A stretch of 64,000 bases of DNA, taken from positions 584,214 to 648,213 of the forward strand of contig NZ_JAAAFX010000004.1 in the NCBI RefSeq assembly GCF_019352895.1, read 5' to 3'. Position numbers and translations under genes: made by a program. This DNA is from Variovorax boronicumulans. Lineage in GTDB: Bacteria > Pseudomonadota > Gammaproteobacteria > Burkholderiales > Burkholderiaceae_C. Below are positions 13,455 through 36,093 of the stretch, in pieces. Numbering within the stretch: position 1 is the stretch's first letter; each line of letters begins with the position of its first letter. The notes beneath the pieces were generated by a model. That model made no database searches and had not been told where the DNA came from. It saw only the letters and a program-made list of their open reading frames with translations.

Positions 13455-13623
13455 CGCCTGATTTGCTCCTTTGCTGCGGGCTTTTGCAAGTCGCATGCCG
13501 ATTCGATTTGCGCATCGGCCATGCGTGACGCGCATTGCGGCCGGATGCAAACTCAACATTGGACCGCAGGCCGCCCGCTCGCGACCATCACGAATCCCCT
13601 CTTCACAACCCAAAGGATTCATC

Positions 13624-14997
13624 ATGAGCGAGCAACTTCGCGCGGCGGCCAAGGAATACATGGTCCGCTACGGCGGCGACACCTTTCCCAACCTGTTCCG
13701 CAGCGCCCGTGGCGCCATCGTGATCGACGACACCGGCCGCGAGATCCTCGACTTCACCTCGGGCCAGATGTGCGCCACCATCGGCCACAACCACCCGGCC
13801 ATCGTGCGCGCGGTGCACGAGGCCGGCGAGAAGGCCTTCCACATGTTCAGCGGCATGATCCCCGAAGTGGTGGCCGAGCTCGCACAGAAGATGGCCACCG
13901 ACTGGATGCCCGCGCCGCTGACCAAGTCGATCTTCGTCAACACCGGTTCCGAGAGCAACGAGGTGGCGCTGCGCATGGCGAAGATGTACACCGGCGGCTT
14001 CGAGATCCTGGCCGTGGGCGGCTCCTGGCACGGCGTCACGGGCGGCACCAGCGCCGTGTCCTTCGCGAGCGACCGCAAGGGCTACGGCGTGCACGTGCCC
14101 GGCGTGTTCCTCATGCCCGAGCCCAACGCCTACCGGCCCTATATCCAGGGCATGTCGGCCGAGGAGTCGGCGCTGACCTGCCTTGAGCTCGGCCTCAAGA
14201 TGTACGACATGGCCTCGACCGGCCGCCGCGCGGCCATCATCATCGAGCCCATCATCAGCGCCGGCGGCGTGCTGGTGCCGCCCAGGTCGTACATGCAGGC
14301 CCTGCGCAAGGCGGCGGACGATCGCGGCATGCTGCTGATCTTCGACGAGGCGCAGACCGCCTTCGGCCGCATCGGCCACCGCACCGCCTCGGACTTCTAC
14401 GGCGTGGTGCCGGACATCATGTCGGTCAGCAAGACCATGGGCGGCGGCCTGCCGCTGGCCGCGACCGTGACCAGCCCGAAGATCGAGCAGGACGTGTTCG
14501 AGAAGGGCTTCACCTTCTACACCAGCCACGTCTCCGATCCGCTGCCCGCCACCGTGGGCCTGGCCGTGCTCGAGACCATCCGCAGCGAGGGCCTGATCGA
14601 ACGCGCCCGCAGCACCGGCGCCTACCTGCGCGGCCAGCTGCTCGACATGCAGCAGCGCTACGAGGCCATCGGCGACGTGCGCGGCGAGGGCCTGCTGCTG
14701 GGCGTGGAACTGGTGCAGGACCGCGACTCGCGCCTGCCCTACCACGAGCTCGGCGCGCGCACCACGAAGAAGTGCTTCGAGCTGGGCCTGAGCATGAACA
14801 TCCGCCGCCGGCCCGAGCGCGGCTCGGTCTGGCGCATCGCGCCGCCGCTCACCGTGCGCCACGAGGAGATCGACCGTGCTATCGCCATCCTCGACCGCGC
14901 GCTGCGCGAGAGCCTGGACGAGATCGCGCGGCCCGCGCCCGTGGCCCGCGCGGACGCGAAGGTGGCCGGCAAGGCCGTCGCGGCGGCGAACCACTGA
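13624..14997 (+). CDS. class III PLP enzyme, 2,2-dialkylglycine decarboxylase-like
   Basis: A 457-residue fold-type I PLP enzyme. Many segments match dialkylglycine decarboxylase: FTSGQMCATIGHNHP, SESNEVALRMAKMYTGGFEI, SWHGVTGG, IFDEAQTAFGR with the PLP-binding Asp, SVSKTMGGGLPLAA with the Schiff-base Lys, and FYTSHVSDPLPA. The known enzyme decarboxylates 2-aminoisobutyrate and transaminates to pyruvate; a related aminotransferase activity is equally possible. It ends in an extra Ala-rich tail of about 25 residues. An amino-acid-type binding protein gene follows after 14 bp, so the two form an operon and the binding protein probably delivers the substrate. Confidence 0.85.
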   Translation: MSEQLRAAAKEYMVRYGGDTFPNLFRSARGAIVIDDTGREILDFTSGQMCATIGHNHPAIVRAVHEAGEKAFHMFSGMIPEVVAELAQKMATDWMPAPLTKSIFVNTGSESNEVALRMAKMYTGGFEILAVGGSWHGVTGGTSAVSFASDRKGYGVHVPGVFLMPEPNAYRPYIQGMSAEESALTCLELGLKMYDMASTGRRAAIIIEPIISAGGVLVPPRSYMQALRKAADDRGMLLIFDEAQTAFGRIGHRTASDFYGVVPDIMSVSKTMGGGLPLAATVTSPKIEQDVFEKGFTFYTSHVSDPLPATVGLAVLETIRSEGLIERARSTGAYLRGQLLDMQQRYEAIGDVRGEGLLLGVELVQDRDSRLPYHELGARTTKKCFELGLSMNIRRRPERGSVWRIAPPLTVRHEEIDRAIAILDRALRESLDEIARPAPVARADAKVAGKAVAAANH

Positions 14998-15011
14998 ACG
15001 GCGGCGTCACC

Positions 15012-15890
15012 ATGACCCGACCTCTTCTCCTCGGCGTCGCGCTGGCCCTTGCATGCATGGGCGCCAGCGCGCAGGACAGCGGCACGCTCGCCAAGGCCCG
15101 GGCCGCGGGCAGCGTCACGATGGGCGTGCGCGACGCCTCGCCGCCGCTTTCGTACTCGCTGGGTACCGGCTACGCGGGCTACCACGTCGAGCTGTGCGAG
15201 CAGATGCTGTCGAAGCTGCTGCCCGGCGTCGCCATCCGGCAGATGGCCGTGACCTCGCAGAACCGGCTGCCGCTGCTGCAGAACGGCACCGTCGACATCG
15301 AGTGCGGTTCGACCACCAACAACACGGCCCGCCAGCAGCAGGCCGCCTTCGCCCACACGACCTACATCACCGAAGCGCGCTTCGCGGTGCGGGCCGCGAG
15401 CGGCATCGCTTCGGTCGAGCAGCTCAAGGGCAAGACCGTGGTGACGACCACCGGCACCACGCTGGTCCAGCGGCTGCGCCGACTCGAACAGGAGCGGCAC
15501 ATCACGGTGGTGCTGGCCAAGGACCATGCGGAGAGCTTCCTGCTGCTGGAGAGCGGGCGCGCCGACGCCTTCGCGATGGACGACAACACGCTGGCCGGCA
15601 ACATCGCCAACGCGCGCAACCCCGCGGACTTCAGGATCGTGGGCAAGCCGCTGGGCATCGAGCCGATCGCGATCATGCTGCGCAAGGACGATCCGGCCTT
15701 CAAGAGCGCGGTCGACGGCTACCTGGCTGCGGCCATGGCCTCGGGCGCGCTGGAGAAGCTCTACGCCAAGTGGTTCATGGCGCCGATCCCGCCCAAGAAC
15801 GCGGTCATCAACATCCCGCTGAGCGACTCGCTCAAGGCCGCGTTCCTGGCGCCCAACGACCGGCCGGCCGAGGCCTACGAGGAGAAGTAG
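15012..15890 (+). CDS. amino-acid ABC transporter substrate-binding protein
   Basis: A 292-residue periplasmic binding protein of the glutamate/aspartate (GltI) family. The signal peptide covers about residues 1-20 (cleavage after GASA). The SBP_bac_3 domain includes PPLSYSLGTGYAGYHVELCEQ, NRLPLLQNGTVDIECGSTTN, and DAFAMDDNTLAGN. No ATPase or permease gene is adjacent, so it must use components encoded elsewhere. It lies 14 bp after the dialkylglycine-decarboxylase-like gene and converges on uraH. Confidence 0.9.
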   Translation: MTRPLLLGVALALACMGASAQDSGTLAKARAAGSVTMGVRDASPPLSYSLGTGYAGYHVELCEQMLSKLLPGVAIRQMAVTSQNRLPLLQNGTVDIECGSTTNNTARQQQAAFAHTTYITEARFAVRAASGIASVEQLKGKTVVTTTGTTLVQRLRRLEQERHITVVLAKDHAESFLLLESGRADAFAMDDNTLAGNIANARNPADFRIVGKPLGIEPIAIMLRKDDPAFKSAVDGYLAAAMASGALEKLYAKWFMAPIPPKNAVINIPLSDSLKAAFLAPNDRPAEAYEEK

Positions 15891-15896
15891 CGCCGC

Positions 15897-16247
15897 TCAG
15901 GACCCGCGGTAGGTGGAATAGCTCCACGGGCTGACCAGCAAGGGCACGTGGTAGTGCTGGTCGGTGTGGGCCACGCCGAAGTCCAACGAGACCTTGTCCA
16001 GGAAATTGGGCTCGGGCAGCTTCACGCCGCGCGCCTTGAAATACGCTGCCACGTCGAAGGTCAGGCGGTAGGTGCCCGTGCGCAGGCTGTCGTTGTCGTA
16101 GAGCGGCCCGTCGCTGCGGCCGTCGGCGTTCAGGGTGAAGCGCTTGACCAGCGTGGCCTGTTCGCCTTGCGTGGTGTACAGCGCCACCGCCATGCCGGCG
16201 GCGGGCCCGCCGTGCATCGTGTCCAGTACGTGAGTGCTCAGGCCCAT
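15897..16247 (-). CDS. uraH: 5-hydroxyisourate hydrolase
   Basis: A 116-residue transthyretin-like protein that opens the ring of 5-hydroxyisourate to give OHCU, the step after PuuD. The N-terminal GLSTHVLDTMHGGPA segment with catalytic His, LNADGRSDGPL, and the C-terminal YSTYRGS signature mark the hydrolase rather than transthyretin. The ATG at 16247 is preceded by GGAG. It is divergent from the gntR gene, and the TGTATACA palindrome lies about 50 bp upstream of its start. Confidence 0.95.
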   Translation of the reverse strand: MGLSTHVLDTMHGGPAAGMAVALYTTQGEQATLVKRFTLNADGRSDGPLYDNDSLRTGTYRLTFDVAAYFKARGVKLPEPNFLDKVSLDFGVAHTDQHYHVPLLVSPWSYSTYRGS

Positions 16248-16292
16248 GGCTCGCTCCTTCGGTCCGGCGGTGCCGGTAGTTTGGTGGACAAA

Positions 16293-16331: not shown

Positions 16332-16997
16332 ATGGAGCCCTCCACCACCGGCGCGATCGTCGACGCACTGACCAAGGCGATTGTCGAGCACCGCCTGCAG
16401 CCCGGCAGCAAGCTCGCCGAGCAGAAACTGGCCGATCATTTCGGGGTCTCGCGCACGCTGGTGCGCCAGGCCCTGTTCCAGCTGTCGCAGAACCGGCTGA
16501 TCCGGCTCGAGCCCGCGCGGGGTGCCTTCGTGGCCGCCCCCACGGTCGACGAGGCGCGGCAGGTCTTCGCGGTGCGCCGCATGCTCGAAGCCGAGATGAC
16601 GCGTGCCTTCGTGCGCGAGAGCACGCCGGCCCGGATCAAGGCGCTGCGCGATCACGTGTCCCAGGAGAAAGACGCCGTGTCCGGCGGCAGCGCCCGGCGC
16701 CGCAACGAACTGCTGGGCGACTTCCACGTGCGCATGGCCGAGCTCATGGGCAACGAGGTGCTGGCGCAGATGCTGGGCGAACTGGTCTCGCGCTGCGCGC
16801 TGATCACGCTGATGTACCAGAGCAGCACTGCGGCCGAGCACTCGCACGACGAGCATGCCGACATCGTGAAGGCGCTGGCCGCCCGCGACGAGGAACGCGC
16901 GGTGCGCCTCATGACCGAACACCTGGAACACGTCGAAGCCGAACTCACCTTCGACCGCAAAGTCCCCACCAACGACATCTCCCTGGCCCTTTCATGA
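16332..16997 (+). CDS. GntR/FCD regulator, probable purine-catabolism regulator
   Basis: A 221-residue regulator with an N-terminal GntR winged helix (LAEQKLADHFGVSRTLVRQAL, about residues 28-50) and a C-terminal all-helical FCD ligand domain. It is divergent from uraH and followed on the same strand by puuE, uraD-allC and the M20 gene. The TGTATACA palindrome in its own promoter also occurs near puuD and the purine permease, so it probably regulates the set, with an intermediate such as urate or allantoin as ligand. It is clearly paralogous to the GntR protein at 29168-29872, in both domains. Confidence 0.9.
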   Translation: MEPSTTGAIVDALTKAIVEHRLQPGSKLAEQKLADHFGVSRTLVRQALFQLSQNRLIRLEPARGAFVAAPTVDEARQVFAVRRMLEAEMTRAFVRESTPARIKALRDHVSQEKDAVSGGSARRRNELLGDFHVRMAELMGNEVLAQMLGELVSRCALITLMYQSSTAAEHSHDEHADIVKALAARDEERAVRLMTEHLEHVEAELTFDRKVPTNDISLALS

Positions 16998-17049: not shown

Positions 17050-17160
17050 AGGGGCAACCCGTCTGTTCGTGGGCTGCGGCGGAACCGGCTTTGCCGGGCC
17101 GCAACGCAGCGCCCCCGGTCGGGGGTGGGGGCCCGACACGCAGTGCGGGCAACCTGGGGG
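17050..17160. repeat. GC-rich intergenic hairpin repeat before puuE
   Basis: The 169-bp gntR-puuE gap carries several GC-rich hairpins: CCCCTTGCGAGGGG, CCGGC-TTT-GCCGG at 17085-17097, and GCCCCCGGTCGGGGGTGGGGGC. Such clusters are typical dispersed intergenic elements in Comamonadaceae. It has no coding signal and could affect mRNA stability within the operon. Confidence 0.45.
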
Positions 17161-17166
17161 CGAGCA

Positions 17167-18108
17167 ATGACCTACGACTCCACCCTGCCCTACCCGCGCG
17201 ACCTGGTCGGCTACGGCCGCAACCCGCCGCATGCGCGCTGGCCCGGCGGCGCCCGCATCGCGGTGCAGTTCGTCCTCAACTACGAGGAAGGCGGCGAGAA
17301 CGCCACGCTGCACGGCGACGCGGGCTCCGAACAGTTCCTGTCCGAGATGTTCAATCCGGCCAGCTACCCGGACCGCCACATCAGCATGGAAGGCATCTAC
17401 GAGTACGGCTCGCGGGCTGGCGTCTGGCGCATCCTGCGCGAGTTCGAGAAGCGCGGCCTGCCGCTGACGGTGTTCGGCGTGGGCATGGCACTGCAGCGCT
17501 ACCCCGAACTCACGGCCGCCTTCCAGGAACTGGGTCACGAGATCGCCTGCCACGGCTGGCGCTGGATCCACTACCAGAACCTCGACGAAGCCACCGAGCG
17601 CGAACACATGCGCCTGGGCATGGAAGCCATCGAGCAGCTCACCGGCGAACGCGCGCTGGGCTGGTACACCGGCCGCGACAGCCCGCGCACGCGCCGGCTG
17701 GTGGCCGACTACGGCGGCTTCGAATACGACAGCGACTACTACGGCGACGACCTGCCCTTCTGGATGAAGGTGCAGAAGACCGACGGCAGCACGGTGCCGC
17801 AGCTCATCGTGCCCTACACGCTGGACGTCAACGACATGCGCTTCGCGCTGCCGCAGGGCTACTCGCACGCCGACCCCTTCTTCCAGTACATGAAGGACAC
17901 CTTCGACGCGCTCTATGCCGAAGGCGACCCGAACGGCGACGACAGTCCGAAGATGATGAGCATCGGCATGCATTGCCGGCTGCTCGGCCGGCCGGGCCGC
18001 ATCACCGCGCTGCAGCGCTTCCTCGACCACATCGCGCAGCACGACAAGGTCTGGGTCTGCCGCCGCGTCGACATCGCGCGCCACTGGAAGCAGGTCCACC
18101 CGGTATGA
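17167..18108 (+). CDS. puuE: allantoinase PuuE (polysaccharide-deacetylase fold)
   Basis: A 313-residue metal-independent-type allantoinase that hydrolyses allantoin to allantoate. The family signature runs from YPRDLVGYGRNPPHARWPGGARIAVQ through the NYEEGGE segment, MEGIYEYGSRAGVWR, and HEIACHGWRWIHYQ. The NodB-like core is present with GWYTGRDSPRTR. The ATG at 17167 follows a repeat-rich spacer; an upstream in-frame GTG at 17125 lies in the repeat and is rejected. Next gene in the operon is the uraD-allC fusion, after a second repeat-bearing spacer. Confidence 0.94.
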   Translation: MTYDSTLPYPRDLVGYGRNPPHARWPGGARIAVQFVLNYEEGGENATLHGDAGSEQFLSEMFNPASYPDRHISMEGIYEYGSRAGVWRILREFEKRGLPLTVFGVGMALQRYPELTAAFQELGHEIACHGWRWIHYQNLDEATEREHMRLGMEAIEQLTGERALGWYTGRDSPRTRRLVADYGGFEYDSDYYGDDLPFWMKVQKTDGSTVPQLIVPYTLDVNDMRFALPQGYSHADPFFQYMKDTFDALYAEGDPNGDDSPKMMSIGMHCRLLGRPGRITALQRFLDHIAQHDKVWVCRRVDIARHWKQVHPV

Positions 18109-18262: not shown

Positions 18263-20050
18263 ATGAGCCAGACGAATCTGACCGTTGCCCAACTCAACGC
18301 CGCTGCGCCGGCCGAGGCCGTCGCGCTGCTCGACGGCGTCTACGAGCACTCGCCCTGGATCGCCGAGCGCGCGCTCGCCGCGCGGCCTTTCCGTTCGCTC
18401 GCGCATCTCAAGCATGCGCTGGCGCAGGTCGTGAACACCGCCTCGGCCGACGAACAGATCGGCCTGATCGCGGCCCACCCCGAACTCGCGGGCAAGGCCA
18501 TGGTCAGCCAGACGCTGACGGCCGAATCGACCAACGAGCAGCGCAAGGCCGGCCTGACCGACTGCACGCCCGAGGAGTTCGCGACCATCCAGCAGCTCAA
18601 CGCCGACTACAACGCGAAGTTCGGCTTCCCCTTCATCCTGGCGGTGCGCGGCCCGCGCGGCGCGGGGCTGCCCAAGCGCGAGATCATCGAGACCTTCGCG
18701 CGCCGGCTGCACCACCATCCGGCCTTCGAGCGCGGCGAGGCGCTGCGCAACATCCACCGGATCGCCGAGATCCGGCTCGACGACAAGTTCGCCGTCGACC
18801 TCACGCTGGGCAACGACGTCTGGGACTGGCAGGAACAGCTGTCGGTGCACACCGATCCCGGCTACGCCGAGAAGGGCCAGCTCACCGTCACCTACCTGAC
18901 CGACGCGCACCGCGCCTGCGCCGCCCAGATCTCGGCCTTGATGCTCGCCACGGGTTTCGACTCGGTGCACATCGACGCGGTCGGCAATGTGGTGGGGCGC
19001 TATGAAGGCGCCACGCCCGACGCCAAGACGCTGCTCACCGGCTCGCACTACGACACCGTGCGCAACGGCGGCAAGTACGACGGCCGGCTGGGCATCTTCG
19101 TGCCCATCGCCTGCGTGCGCGAACTCAAGCGCCAGAGCCGGCGCCTGCCCTTCGCCTTCGAGGTGGTGGGCTTCGCCGAGGAGGAAGGCCAGCGCTACAA
19201 GGCGACCTTCCTGGGCTCGGGCGCGCTCATCGGCCACTTCGACGCGCGCTGGCTCGTGCAGAAGGACGCCGACGGCATCACCATGCGCGAGGCCATGCAG
19301 CACGCAGGCCTCAAGGAAGAGGACATCCCGAAGATCCAGCGCGATCCGGCGCGCTACCTGGGCTTCGTTGAGGTGCACATCGAGCAGGGCCCGGTGCTGA
19401 CCGAGCTCGACCTGCCGCTGGGCATCGTGACTTCGATCAACGGCAGCGTGCGCTACGTGGGCGAAGTCATCGGCATGGCCAGCCACGCCGGCACCACACC
19501 TATGGACCGCCGCCGCGACGCCGCCGCCGCGGTGGCCGAGCTGATCCTCTACACCGAACGGCGCGCCGCGCAGGATGGCGACTCGGTCGGCACCGTGGGC
19601 ATGCTCGAAGTGCCCAGCGGTTCGATCAACGTGGTGCCGGGCCGCTGCAAGTTCAGCCTGGACCTGCGCGCCCCCCACAACACGCAGCGCGACGCGCTGG
19701 CCACCGACGTGGTGGCCGAGCTCCAGGCCATCTGCGAGCGCCGCGGCGTGCGCTTCGAGCTCGAGGAAACCATGCGCGCCGCCGCCGCGCCCAGCGCGCC
19801 CGCCTGGCAGCAGCGCTGGGAGACAGCGGTCGATGCCCTGGGCATCCCGCTGTTCCGCATGCCCAGCGGCGCCGGCCACGATGCGATGAAGCTGCACGAG
19901 GTCATGCCCCAGGCCATGCTCTTCGTGCGCGGCATCAACTCGGGCATCAGCCACAACCCGCTCGAATCGAGCACCAACGACGACATCCAGCTGGCTGTCC
20001 AGGCCTTCCAGCTCCTGCTCGAAGGCCTGGCTGCTGACCCCGCCCCCTGA
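18263..20050 (+). CDS. OHCU decarboxylase - allantoate amidohydrolase fusion
   Basis: A 595-residue bifunctional protein. Residues 1 to about 175 are OHCU decarboxylase (UraD), with AAHPELAGK, STNEQRKAGL and LNADYNAKFGFPFI; it makes S-allantoin. From about residue 183 the protein is an M20 allantoate amidohydrolase (AllC/HyuC type), with metal ligands in TGSHYDT, GGKYDGRLG, FAEEEGQRY, EVHIEQGP and SHNPLE; it releases ammonia and CO2 from allantoate. The two steps are not consecutive: allantoinase (PuuE, upstream) acts between them. The ATG at 18263 follows AAGGAACG. Such fusions are annotated in related bacteria. Confidence 0.93.
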   Translation: MSQTNLTVAQLNAAAPAEAVALLDGVYEHSPWIAERALAARPFRSLAHLKHALAQVVNTASADEQIGLIAAHPELAGKAMVSQTLTAESTNEQRKAGLTDCTPEEFATIQQLNADYNAKFGFPFILAVRGPRGAGLPKREIIETFARRLHHHPAFERGEALRNIHRIAEIRLDDKFAVDLTLGNDVWDWQEQLSVHTDPGYAEKGQLTVTYLTDAHRACAAQISALMLATGFDSVHIDAVGNVVGRYEGATPDAKTLLTGSHYDTVRNGGKYDGRLGIFVPIACVRELKRQSRRLPFAFEVVGFAEEEGQRYKATFLGSGALIGHFDARWLVQKDADGITMREAMQHAGLKEEDIPKIQRDPARYLGFVEVHIEQGPVLTELDLPLGIVTSINGSVRYVGEVIGMASHAGTTPMDRRRDAAAAVAELILYTERRAAQDGDSVGTVGMLEVPSGSINVVPGRCKFSLDLRAPHNTQRDALATDVVAELQAICERRGVRFELEETMRAAAAPSAPAWQQRWETAVDALGIPLFRMPSGAGHDAMKLHEVMPQAMLFVRGINSGISHNPLESSTNDDIQLAVQAFQLLLEGLAADPAP

Positions 20051-20067: not shown

Positions 20068-21294
20068 ATGACCGACTACGCCAAGCTCGACGCCTGGATC
20101 GACGCCCACTTCGACGAGGAAGTGAAGTTCCTGCAGCAACTGGTGCAGGTACCCACCGACACGCCGCCCGGCAACAACGCGCCGCACGCCGAGCGCACGG
20201 CCGAGCTGCTGAAGGACTTCGGCTTCGAGGCCGAGAAGCACGCCGTGCCCGCGCAGGAAGTGCAGGACTACGGGCTCGAATCGATCACCAACCTGATCGT
20301 GCGCCGCCCCTACGGCAGCGGCGGCCGCACCGTGGCGCTCAATGCGCACGGCGACGTCGTGCCCCCGGGCGACGGCTGGACGCACGACCCCTACGGCGGC
20401 GAGATCGTCGACGGCAGCCTCTACGGCCGCGCCACCGCGGTCAGCAAGAGCGACTTCGCCAGCTTCACCTTCGCGCTGCGCGCGCTCGAGGCCGTGGCCA
20501 GGCCGACGAAGGGCGCGGTCGAGCTGCACTTCACCTACGACGAGGAATTCGGCGGCATCCTCGGCCCGGGCTGGCTGCTCGAGAAGGGCCTGACGAAGCC
20601 CGACCTGATGATCGCGGCCGGCTTCAGCTACGAAGTGGTCACGGCCCACAACGGCTGCCTGCAGATGGAAGTCACGGTGCACGGCAAGATGGCCCACGCG
20701 GCCATCCCCACCACCGGCGTCGACGCGCTGCAGGGCGCGGTCAAGATCCTCAACGCGCTCTATGCGCAGAACATGCTCTACCAGCAGGTCACGTCGAAGG
20801 TCGAGGGCATCACGCACCCCTACCTCAACGTGGGCCGCATCGAAGGCGGCACCAACACCAACGTGGTGCCCGGCAAGGTGGTGTTCAAGCTCGACCGCCG
20901 CATGATCCCCGAGGAGAACCCGGTCGAGGTCGAGGCCGCCATCCGCCAGGTGATCGCCGATGCGGCCGCCGAGAGCGCGGGCATCACGGTCGAGATCAAG
21001 CGCCTGCTGCTGGCCAACTCGATGAAGCCGCTGGCCGGCAACAAGCCGCTGGTCGACGCGATCCAGAAGCACGGCCAGGACGTGTTCGGCGAACCCATCA
21101 AGGCCATGGGCACGCCGCTCTACACCGACGTGCGCCTGTACGGCGAAGCCGGCATCCCGGGCGTGATCTACGGCGCCGGCCCGCGCACCGTGCTCGAGTC
21201 GCATGCCAAGCGCAGCGACGAGCGCGTGGTGCTCGAAGACCTGCGCCGCGCGACCAAGGTCATCGCGCGCACGCTGGCCGACCTGCTGGCCTGA
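20068..21294 (+). CDS. M20-family protein with altered metal site, purine-operon associated
   Basis: A 408-residue protein of the ArgE/DapE/carboxypeptidase G2 family. Conserved parts are LNAHGDVVPPG (His94, Asp96), TYDEEFGG (Glu159, Glu160) and the late His379 in SHAKRSDE. At the segment that normally reads GxxxADxK, this protein has RATAVSKSD: the metal-bridging Asp is Val125. The GEP segment carrying another ligand reads GFS. It lies 17 bp after uraD-allC, so it belongs to the ureide operon. A role on ureidoglycine or ureidoglycolate would fill the gap in this pathway, but nothing in the sequence proves it. Confidence 0.85.
   Translation: MTDYAKLDAWIDAHFDEEVKFLQQLVQVPTDTPPGNNAPHAERTAELLKDFGFEAEKHAVPAQEVQDYGLESITNLIVRRPYGSGGRTVALNAHGDVVPPGDGWTHDPYGGEIVDGSLYGRATAVSKSDFASFTFALRALEAVARPTKGAVELHFTYDEEFGGILGPGWLLEKGLTKPDLMIAAGFSYEVVTAHNGCLQMEVTVHGKMAHAAIPTTGVDALQGAVKILNALYAQNMLYQQVTSKVEGITHPYLNVGRIEGGTNTNVVPGKVVFKLDRRMIPEENPVEVEAAIRQVIADAAAESAGITVEIKRLLLANSMKPLAGNKPLVDAIQKHGQDVFGEPIKAMGTPLYTDVRLYGEAGIPGVIYGAGPRTVLESHAKRSDERVVLEDLRRATKVIARTLADLLA

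Positions 21295-34299: not shown

Positions 34300-36093
<1,794 letters not shown>

Follow-up and report, generated by a model that had tools for sequence, protein, structure and literature searches.

An M20-fold protein encoded after allantoate amidohydrolase has lost metal ligands of its superfamily and may act on ureidoglycolate or ureidoglycine

Purine-degrading Comamonadaceae and their relatives carry the allantoate amidohydrolase AllC but, where tested, no known enzyme for the later steps. Which protein, then, acts after AllC in these bacteria? A ureide cluster of Variovorax boronicumulans bears on this question. The window, by which we mean the whole stretch of 64,000 nucleotides analyzed (contig NZ_JAAAFX010000004.1, positions 584,214 to 648,213), contains the following genes:

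15897..16250, minus strand: uraH, hydroxyisourate hydrolase (TIGR02962, 128.8 bits, cut-off 87.45; the ATG is the second codon of the frame tested)
16332..16997, plus strand: GntR-type regulator (PF00392, PF07729)
17125..18108, plus strand: puuE, allantoinase (TIGR03212, 495.9 bits, cut-off 424.6; given from the first possible start, the true one perhaps lying some codons in)
18263..20050, plus strand: uraD-allC fusion, OHCU decarboxylase and allantoate amidohydrolase, 17 bp upstream of the next gene (PF09349, 1e-46; PF01546, 6.7e-18)
20068..21294, plus strand: M20-fold protein of the VSKSD clade, 408 aa, the central finding (PF01546, 2.3e-24; PF07687, 9.9e-20)
34303..36093, plus strand: glyoxylate carboligase (Gcl), user of the expected end product (TIGR01504, 1139.1 bits, cut-off 711.2)

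The host genome (99.93% complete) has no match to the ureidoglycolate lyase AllA (PF04115) or to ureidoglycine aminohydrolase (UGHY; TIGR03214). The initial annotation had described the enzymes for ureidoglycine and ureidoglycolate as missing, and for these two families this holds genome-wide. We infer that the 408-aa protein is not a peptidase and that it supplies the step for which the host genome has no known enzyme. A pathway role beside the allantoate step is well supported; the reaction proposed below is the one that sequence and context suggest. The gene context of purine-ureide enzymes was reportedly treated in a 2014 paper in Biochemistry, and a literature search that had most subscription journals outside its scope found no paper on the 408-aa protein.

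Several minor features of the cluster may be recorded here. The uraD-allC product scores 1027 bits against PRK13799, below the cut-off of 1087. That model is still titled "unknown domain/N-carbamoyl-L-amino acid hydrolase fusion protein", and the two genes are fused in relatives too. The top NCBIfam match of the GntR protein is a phosphonate-type regulator, far below its cut-off. A xanthine/uracil-type permease is also encoded farther out in the window.

The gene after allC encodes a protein with the M20 fold

An M20-family reading frame 17 bp past uraD-allC had been annotated, correctly on both counts: the stop codon of the fusion ends at 20050, and the frame at 20068-21294 (plus strand) encodes an M20-fold protein of 408 amino acids. 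At E 0.001 the protein matches two Pfam families, Peptidase_M20 and M20_dimer (86.9 and 70.9 bits, cut-offs 24.6 and 21), both of them M20, and PF04115 (AllA) is not among its matches. TIGR03214 is likewise absent from the NCBIfam matches listed for it (the best 25 of 60), all of which are M20-type. Its score against TIGR01910 (ArgE/DapE), 224.7 bits, lies 7 bits above the cut-off of 217.6; of four other clade members examined, one (L161, 227) also exceeds this cut-off, and the other three match no model at E 1e-60. Against TIGR03526, the model for YgeY, which according to a passage of PMC4016543 is an M20 protein encoded in an E. coli cluster linked to purines, it scores 81.2 bits against a cut-off of 321.5. 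The host genome encodes the protein once; of seven matches there, the next best is 27% identical.

An AlphaFold2 model of the protein has the M20 fold (mean pLDDT 82.0, pTM 0.81). This is one model from a shallow alignment of 52 sequences 81-95% identical to the query, and residues 191-193 and 376-378, the latter adjoining the active site, have a pLDDT below 50. The best solved structural match is 3pfo_A (Z 36.8, rmsd 3.5, 395 aligned), and other close matches are 5k8m_C (Z 35.6, rmsd 3.0, 358 aligned) and 7uoi (Z 34.9). The 5k8m structure is that of 5-nitroanthranilate aminohydrolase (5k8m-5k8p), which shares the M20 fold at ~22% identity and catalyzes another reaction. It is also found by phmmer (2.5e-10 over 85-406), its comparison with the 408-aa protein covering sequence and fold.

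Three of the five metal ligands are replaced

In ArgE/DapE enzymes, an Arg and an Asn of the dimerization domain bind the substrate carboxylate, and a His acting in trans polarizes the carbonyl. Through these enzymes we assign the five ligand positions of the two-metal site, which we take to be 94, 125, 160, 184 and 381; by the same analogy, Glu159 is presumably the general base (the catalytic Glu) and His210 the trans-acting His. These positions were compared across 159 rows of relatives and 10 canonical M20 proteins, the latter comprising own-genome paralogues and the closest relatives from outside the clade. An eleventh M20 protein of a distant subfamily (L085), which has Cys at column 125, was left out of the canonical count. 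The 159 rows (151 in an earlier count) include short loci of genomes taken again with their flanks; dropping duplicates left 131 rows, in which some genomes may still be double, with V in 130 and T in 1 at column 125 and K in 109 and H in 22 at column 381. The codons concerned are:

20440..20442, plus strand: Val125, the bridging-Asp position (V in 158 and T in 1 of 159 relatives; D in 10/10 canonical)
20452..20454, plus strand: Asp129, a clade-specific acid one helix turn on (D in 159/159; canonical G 6, S 2, F 1, N 1)
20617..20619, plus strand: Ala184, the second-metal Glu (GEP) position (A in 152, P in 6 and S in 1 of 159; Glu in 8/10 canonical)
21208..21210, plus strand: Lys381, the C-terminal ligand His position (K in 131 and H in 28 of 159; H in 10/10 canonical)

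The protein thus keeps two of the five ligands (His94 and Glu160). It resembles the M20 ArgE/DapE deacylases (PF01546, TIGR01910; 7uoi, 3pfo) in fold, dimerization domain, His94/Asp96, Glu159/Glu160, His210 and the D384-E385 end motif but has Val125, Ala184 and Lys381 where those enzymes have the bridging Asp, the second-metal Glu and the C-terminal His. AllC shares its operon, its pathway and a Peptidase_M20 match with the 408-aa protein and differs in belonging to the hydantoinase/carbamoylase branch (TIGR01879) and in having ligands that, judged by eye, are apparently intact.

Most of what the initial annotation said of this site stands. The motif RATAVSKSD (residues 121-129) does carry Val125 for the bridging Asp, the Asp being present there in all 10 canonical M20 proteins compared, and phmmer alignments to 7uoi and 3pfo also put Val125 opposite it. 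His94, Asp96, Glu159 and Glu160 are present as described, in all 159 relatives as well. The stated change of GEP to GFS was read in the wrong register, since the Glu aligns with Ala184, but the ligand loss itself holds, and no relative has an acid at column 184. His379, said to remain, must be given up as a kept ligand: of the 159 relatives, 93 have H at column 379, 58 have N, 4 have G and 4 have R, so that His is absent from 66 of them, and the canonical His is at column 381, where the window protein has Lys. As counter-evidence, HMMER with a close-relative profile paired His379 with the 3pfo His across a two-residue gap; when the queries were L162 and L163, two deeper members, however, column 381 was paired with the canonical His, and the distance to the conserved D-E pair likewise agrees with column 381. 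The 28 relatives that retain His381 constitute a deeper branch; members from Azospirillum and Aminobacter are examples of the His381 type. The suggested changed metal site is therefore upheld, with a loss larger than had been stated.

As judged from these alignments, the bridging Asp and the second-metal Glu are replaced clade-wide, and the C-terminal His is replaced also in the branch of the window protein. On sequence grounds the 408-aa protein is a member of the M20 superfamily by descent, yet it lacks the ligand set of an M20 metallopeptidase; it appears to be misnamed, and it is widely kept. Its database name would make it an ordinary deacylase or peptidase of the ArgE/DapE type that sits at this locus by chance, which is scarcely credible. 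The narrow excess over the TIGR01910 cut-off and the title "ArgE/DapE family deacylase" in many of the plasmid records listed speak for this reading, but three of five ligands are replaced, and the purine neighbors described below are near constant.

The residues invariant in 159/159 relatives are His94, Asp96, Lys127, Glu159, Glu160, His210, Asn265, Arg278, Tyr352, Asp354 and Arg356. Asp129, Glu152, Asp219, Tyr352, Ser126 and Asn195 are clade-specific and invariant or nearly so. Asp129 is part of helix 126-144 in the AlphaFold2 model and is possibly a replacement ligand. The invariance of Glu159, Glu160, His94, Asp96, Lys127, His210, Asn265 and Arg278 favors an enzyme over the non-catalytic binding partner that had been offered as an alternative.

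The relatives form a single clade

At least 590 related stretches were found, of which the best 80 were kept, all at least 81% identical. Even samples of 300 genomes from the order and 299 from the phylum gave matches at E 1e-60 in 41 and 15 genomes, respectively, with identity down to 51-52%. Plasmid records of Azospirillum, Roseomonas, Aminobacter, Caballeronia and Burkholderia hold members 52-58% identical and one of Tistrella a member 42% identical, the next match being at 29%; beyond the clade, identity to the closest relatives is 28-33%.

A tree was built from 72 rows (part of the 80 named loci, most other loci, all 8 plasmid loci and 8 outgroup proteins). All 64 clade rows fall on a single branch with support of 100/99, the outgroup branches being long, and rows with Lys381 and His381 split at one fork (85/86 and 96/67). 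Because M20 proteins outside the clade have His381, the tree gives moderate support to the change from His to Lys being a later step. For six pairs, dN/dS is 0.12-0.26, which indicates that the gene is maintained by purifying selection. The initial proposal that RATAVSKSD might define a clade beside purine genes was half right: there is one clade, but it is wider than the purine cluster. With kynurenine, hydantoinase-like, FAD oxidoreductase and transporter neighbors among its members, the clade overall has more than one role; the branch of the window protein is dedicated mainly to the ureide pathway.

AllC is the usual upstream neighbor

In 80/80 named loci AllC lies directly upstream on the same strand, with a gap of at most 146 bp between the aligned parts, which makes the pathway gap directly testable. 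Among 35 more diverse loci, AllC is found within 2.6 kb in 29 (24 upstream on the same strand, 1 downstream on the same strand and 4 on the opposite strand) and not near in L127, L132, L136, L141, L147 and L149. In L127, a short contig, puuE adjoins the gene. Of 38 plasmid records, 8 were opened; AllC is nearby in 3 of these loci and not in L160 and L162-L165. The class-III aminotransferase and family-3 solute-binding protein encoded between xdhC and uraH in the window (13621-15890, plus strand) were considered as pathway partners and rejected: they are near the gene in 0/80 named loci (at least 45% identity) and so look like a local insertion.

Among the loci without AllC is L141, in genome G267. 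A gene for allantoicase (TIGR02961, 434 bits) occupies the position of AllC there, with its end 3 bp upstream of the start codon. The product of allantoicase is given as ureidoglycolate in a passage of PMC3793230, so this arrangement points to ureidoglycolate as the substrate. AllA is encoded ~8 kb from the gene in the same genome; a second ureidoglycolate lyase would be redundant there, which argues against simple replacement of AllA.

G267 also bears on whether the protein is a non-catalytic partner or regulator of AllC. The closeness of AllC and the lost metal ligands would fit such a role, but the gene follows an unrelated allantoicase here and elsewhere has no AllC nearby, and Glu159, His210, Asn265 and Arg278 never vary; we regard this explanation as very improbable.

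The order in Aminobacter sp. SR38 is racemase, puuE, allC, the gene, two substrate-binding genes with an ANTAR regulator, a urea transporter and urease genes, a set that fits the release of urea. It can be weighed against an amidohydrolase that would release ammonia from ureidoglycolate or ureidoglycine and whose metal site would have been rebuilt, for example by Asp129 in the role of Asp125. Plant ureidoglycolate amidohydrolase (UAH) is related to M20, and AllC is M20-related by its Pfam match; Asp129 is present in every relative and in none of the 10 canonical M20 proteins, and the deeper branch retains His94, Glu160 and His381. That UAH releases ammonia in plants is stated in part of PMC3793230. 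Against this, Lys381 is found in 131/159 relatives including the window protein, none has an acid at column 184, and adjoining urea transporter and urease genes would be odd if ammonia were the sole release. The initial annotation had suggested a new amidohydrolase; given the ligand losses and the Aminobacter cluster with its urease genes, we lean to urea release and consider the amidohydrolase improbable.

The gene and allantoicase may mark alternative modules

Among the 300 genomes of the order, UraD was found in 74, allantoicase in 26, a strong AllA match (E 1e-20) in 37 and UGHY (E 1e-30) in 3. UraD is present in 38 of 41 carriers of the gene compared with 36 of 259 other genomes (Fisher 5e-24). 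Within the 74 UraD genomes, 2 have both the gene and allantoicase, 36 the gene only, 23 allantoicase only and 13 neither (p 6e-8); for the gene and AllA, the corresponding numbers are 10, 28, 23 and 13 (p 0.002). Because genomes of one clade are not independent, these p values overstate the contrasts. Allantoicase co-occurs with AllA in 24 of 25 UraD genomes, and the contrast with AllA may therefore merely reflect that AllA goes with allantoicase. The simplest reading is that two modules serve as alternatives, one pairing allantoicase with AllA and the other pairing AllC with the VSKSD-clade protein.

We rejected the replacement of AllA as a clean proof of function, since AllA is bound up with allantoicase and 11/41 carriers (10 of the 38 with UraD) have a strong AllA match. 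By coordinates, AllA is near the gene only in G267; in the other carriers it is more than 600 kb away or on other, partly short contigs. The 13 UraD genomes with neither the gene nor allantoicase (G005, G012, G060, G062, G144, G147, G180, G207, G210, G211, G240, G242 and G272) imply that a third solution exists; only G207 among them has a strong AllA match. Urease was also discarded as a weak discriminator: by hand count, strong matches occur in 35/41 carriers and 22/36 controls (p 0.02), a contrast that says little because most controls also make urea.

The near absence of UGHY raises the possibility that the protein is a ureidoglycine aminohydrolase with one metal, which would replace the NH2 of (S)-ureidoglycine by OH to give (S)-ureidoglycolate in place of the cupin UGHY, another protein handling ureidoglycolate. 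UGHY has no match in the host, in 297 of the 300 genomes or in any of the 41 carriers, and the product of AllC is ureidoglycine according to a passage of PMC4016543. In addition, the closest solved folds include 5-nitroanthranilate aminohydrolase, whose name refers to such a swap and which shows that the M20 fold is used for amino-group replacement; this keeps the explanation alive. A common fold is, however, no proof of function; allantoicase in the G267 operon would not yield ureidoglycine, and the ureidoglycolate step would be left unfilled in a genome with no AllA match. We consider the aminohydrolase rather unlikely.

A urea-releasing reaction is proposed for the step after AllC

We tentatively favor an active enzyme that works directly after AllC and most likely yields glyoxylate and urea by cleavage of ureidoglycolate (or ureidoglycine), with no water activated by two metals. 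The loss of three ligands makes it unlikely that a metal-bound water attacks the urea group. Only a base and an acid would be needed for a carbinolamine (ureidoglycolate) or an aminal (ureidoglycine) to expel urea. Ureidoglycine is described as thermally unstable in part of PMC4016543, which says that its decay at 60 C gives glyoxylate, ammonia and urea; given this instability, a lyase alone could suffice after AllC.

In the proposed mechanism, Arg278 and Asn265 would bind ureidoglycolate (or ureidoglycine) by its carboxylate, small carboxylates of the ureidoglycolate kind being a plausible fit to the Arg/Asn site, and His210 of the partner subunit would orient the ureido group. The base could then be Glu159 and the acid Lys127, His94 or Lys381, and urea would be expelled to leave glyoxylate, which Gcl would use. 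One metal might bind His94/Glu160, with His381 added in the deeper branch.

The proposed reaction is the same as that of AllA (EC 4.3.2.3), ureidoglycolate to urea and glyoxylate. AllA, by the account in a passage of PMC3793230, catalyzes this reaction as a nickel-dependent enzyme of the cupin fold, and its sequence is unrelated to the 408-aa protein. UGHY acts at a neighboring step of the pathway and differs in being a cupin model. A bolder version of the urea-releasing reading, possible though doubtful, is a metal-free urea-lyase of M20 fold that shed its two-metal center stepwise and, without kinship to the nickel enzyme AllA, came to serve the AllC branch in Proteobacteria as its ureidoglycolate/ureidoglycine lyase and to fill the steps missing from a common purine pathway. 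Asp to Val and Glu to Ala would have come first and His to Lys afterwards, the lysine assuming the charge of the metal. If the protein is metal-independent, it would offer a rare instance in which the loss of both metals from a hydrolase fold can be traced, base and substrate-binding residues being kept, with the deeper His381 branch as a preserved intermediate. The reaction decides whether purine nitrogen is released as urea or ammonia in these soil- and plant-associated bacteria, and hundreds of "ArgE/DapE family deacylase" annotations would change.

Some clade members lie beside other genes

In L132 (Burkholderiaceae, His381), kynureninase and tryptophan 2,3-dioxygenase adjoin the clade member by Pfam match, and L164, of Burkholderiaceae as well, looks alike by eye, which suggests a second substrate in tryptophan breakdown for these two members. 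A Variovorax paradoxus plasmid (L163:1916-10248) carries a His381 member of 53% identity near a dihydropyrimidinase/hydantoinase (TIGR02033, 525.6 bits), together with a RidA-like protein and a large FAD/2Fe-2S oxidoreductase. On a Burkholderia aenigmatica plasmid (L160:6496-11020), a racemase, an amidohydrolase and a carbon-nitrogen hydrolase surround the clade member; perhaps other enzymes here take the places of AllC and allantoinase in a module resembling that for ureides. In L165, the clade member is found beside FAD oxidoreductases and a transporter.
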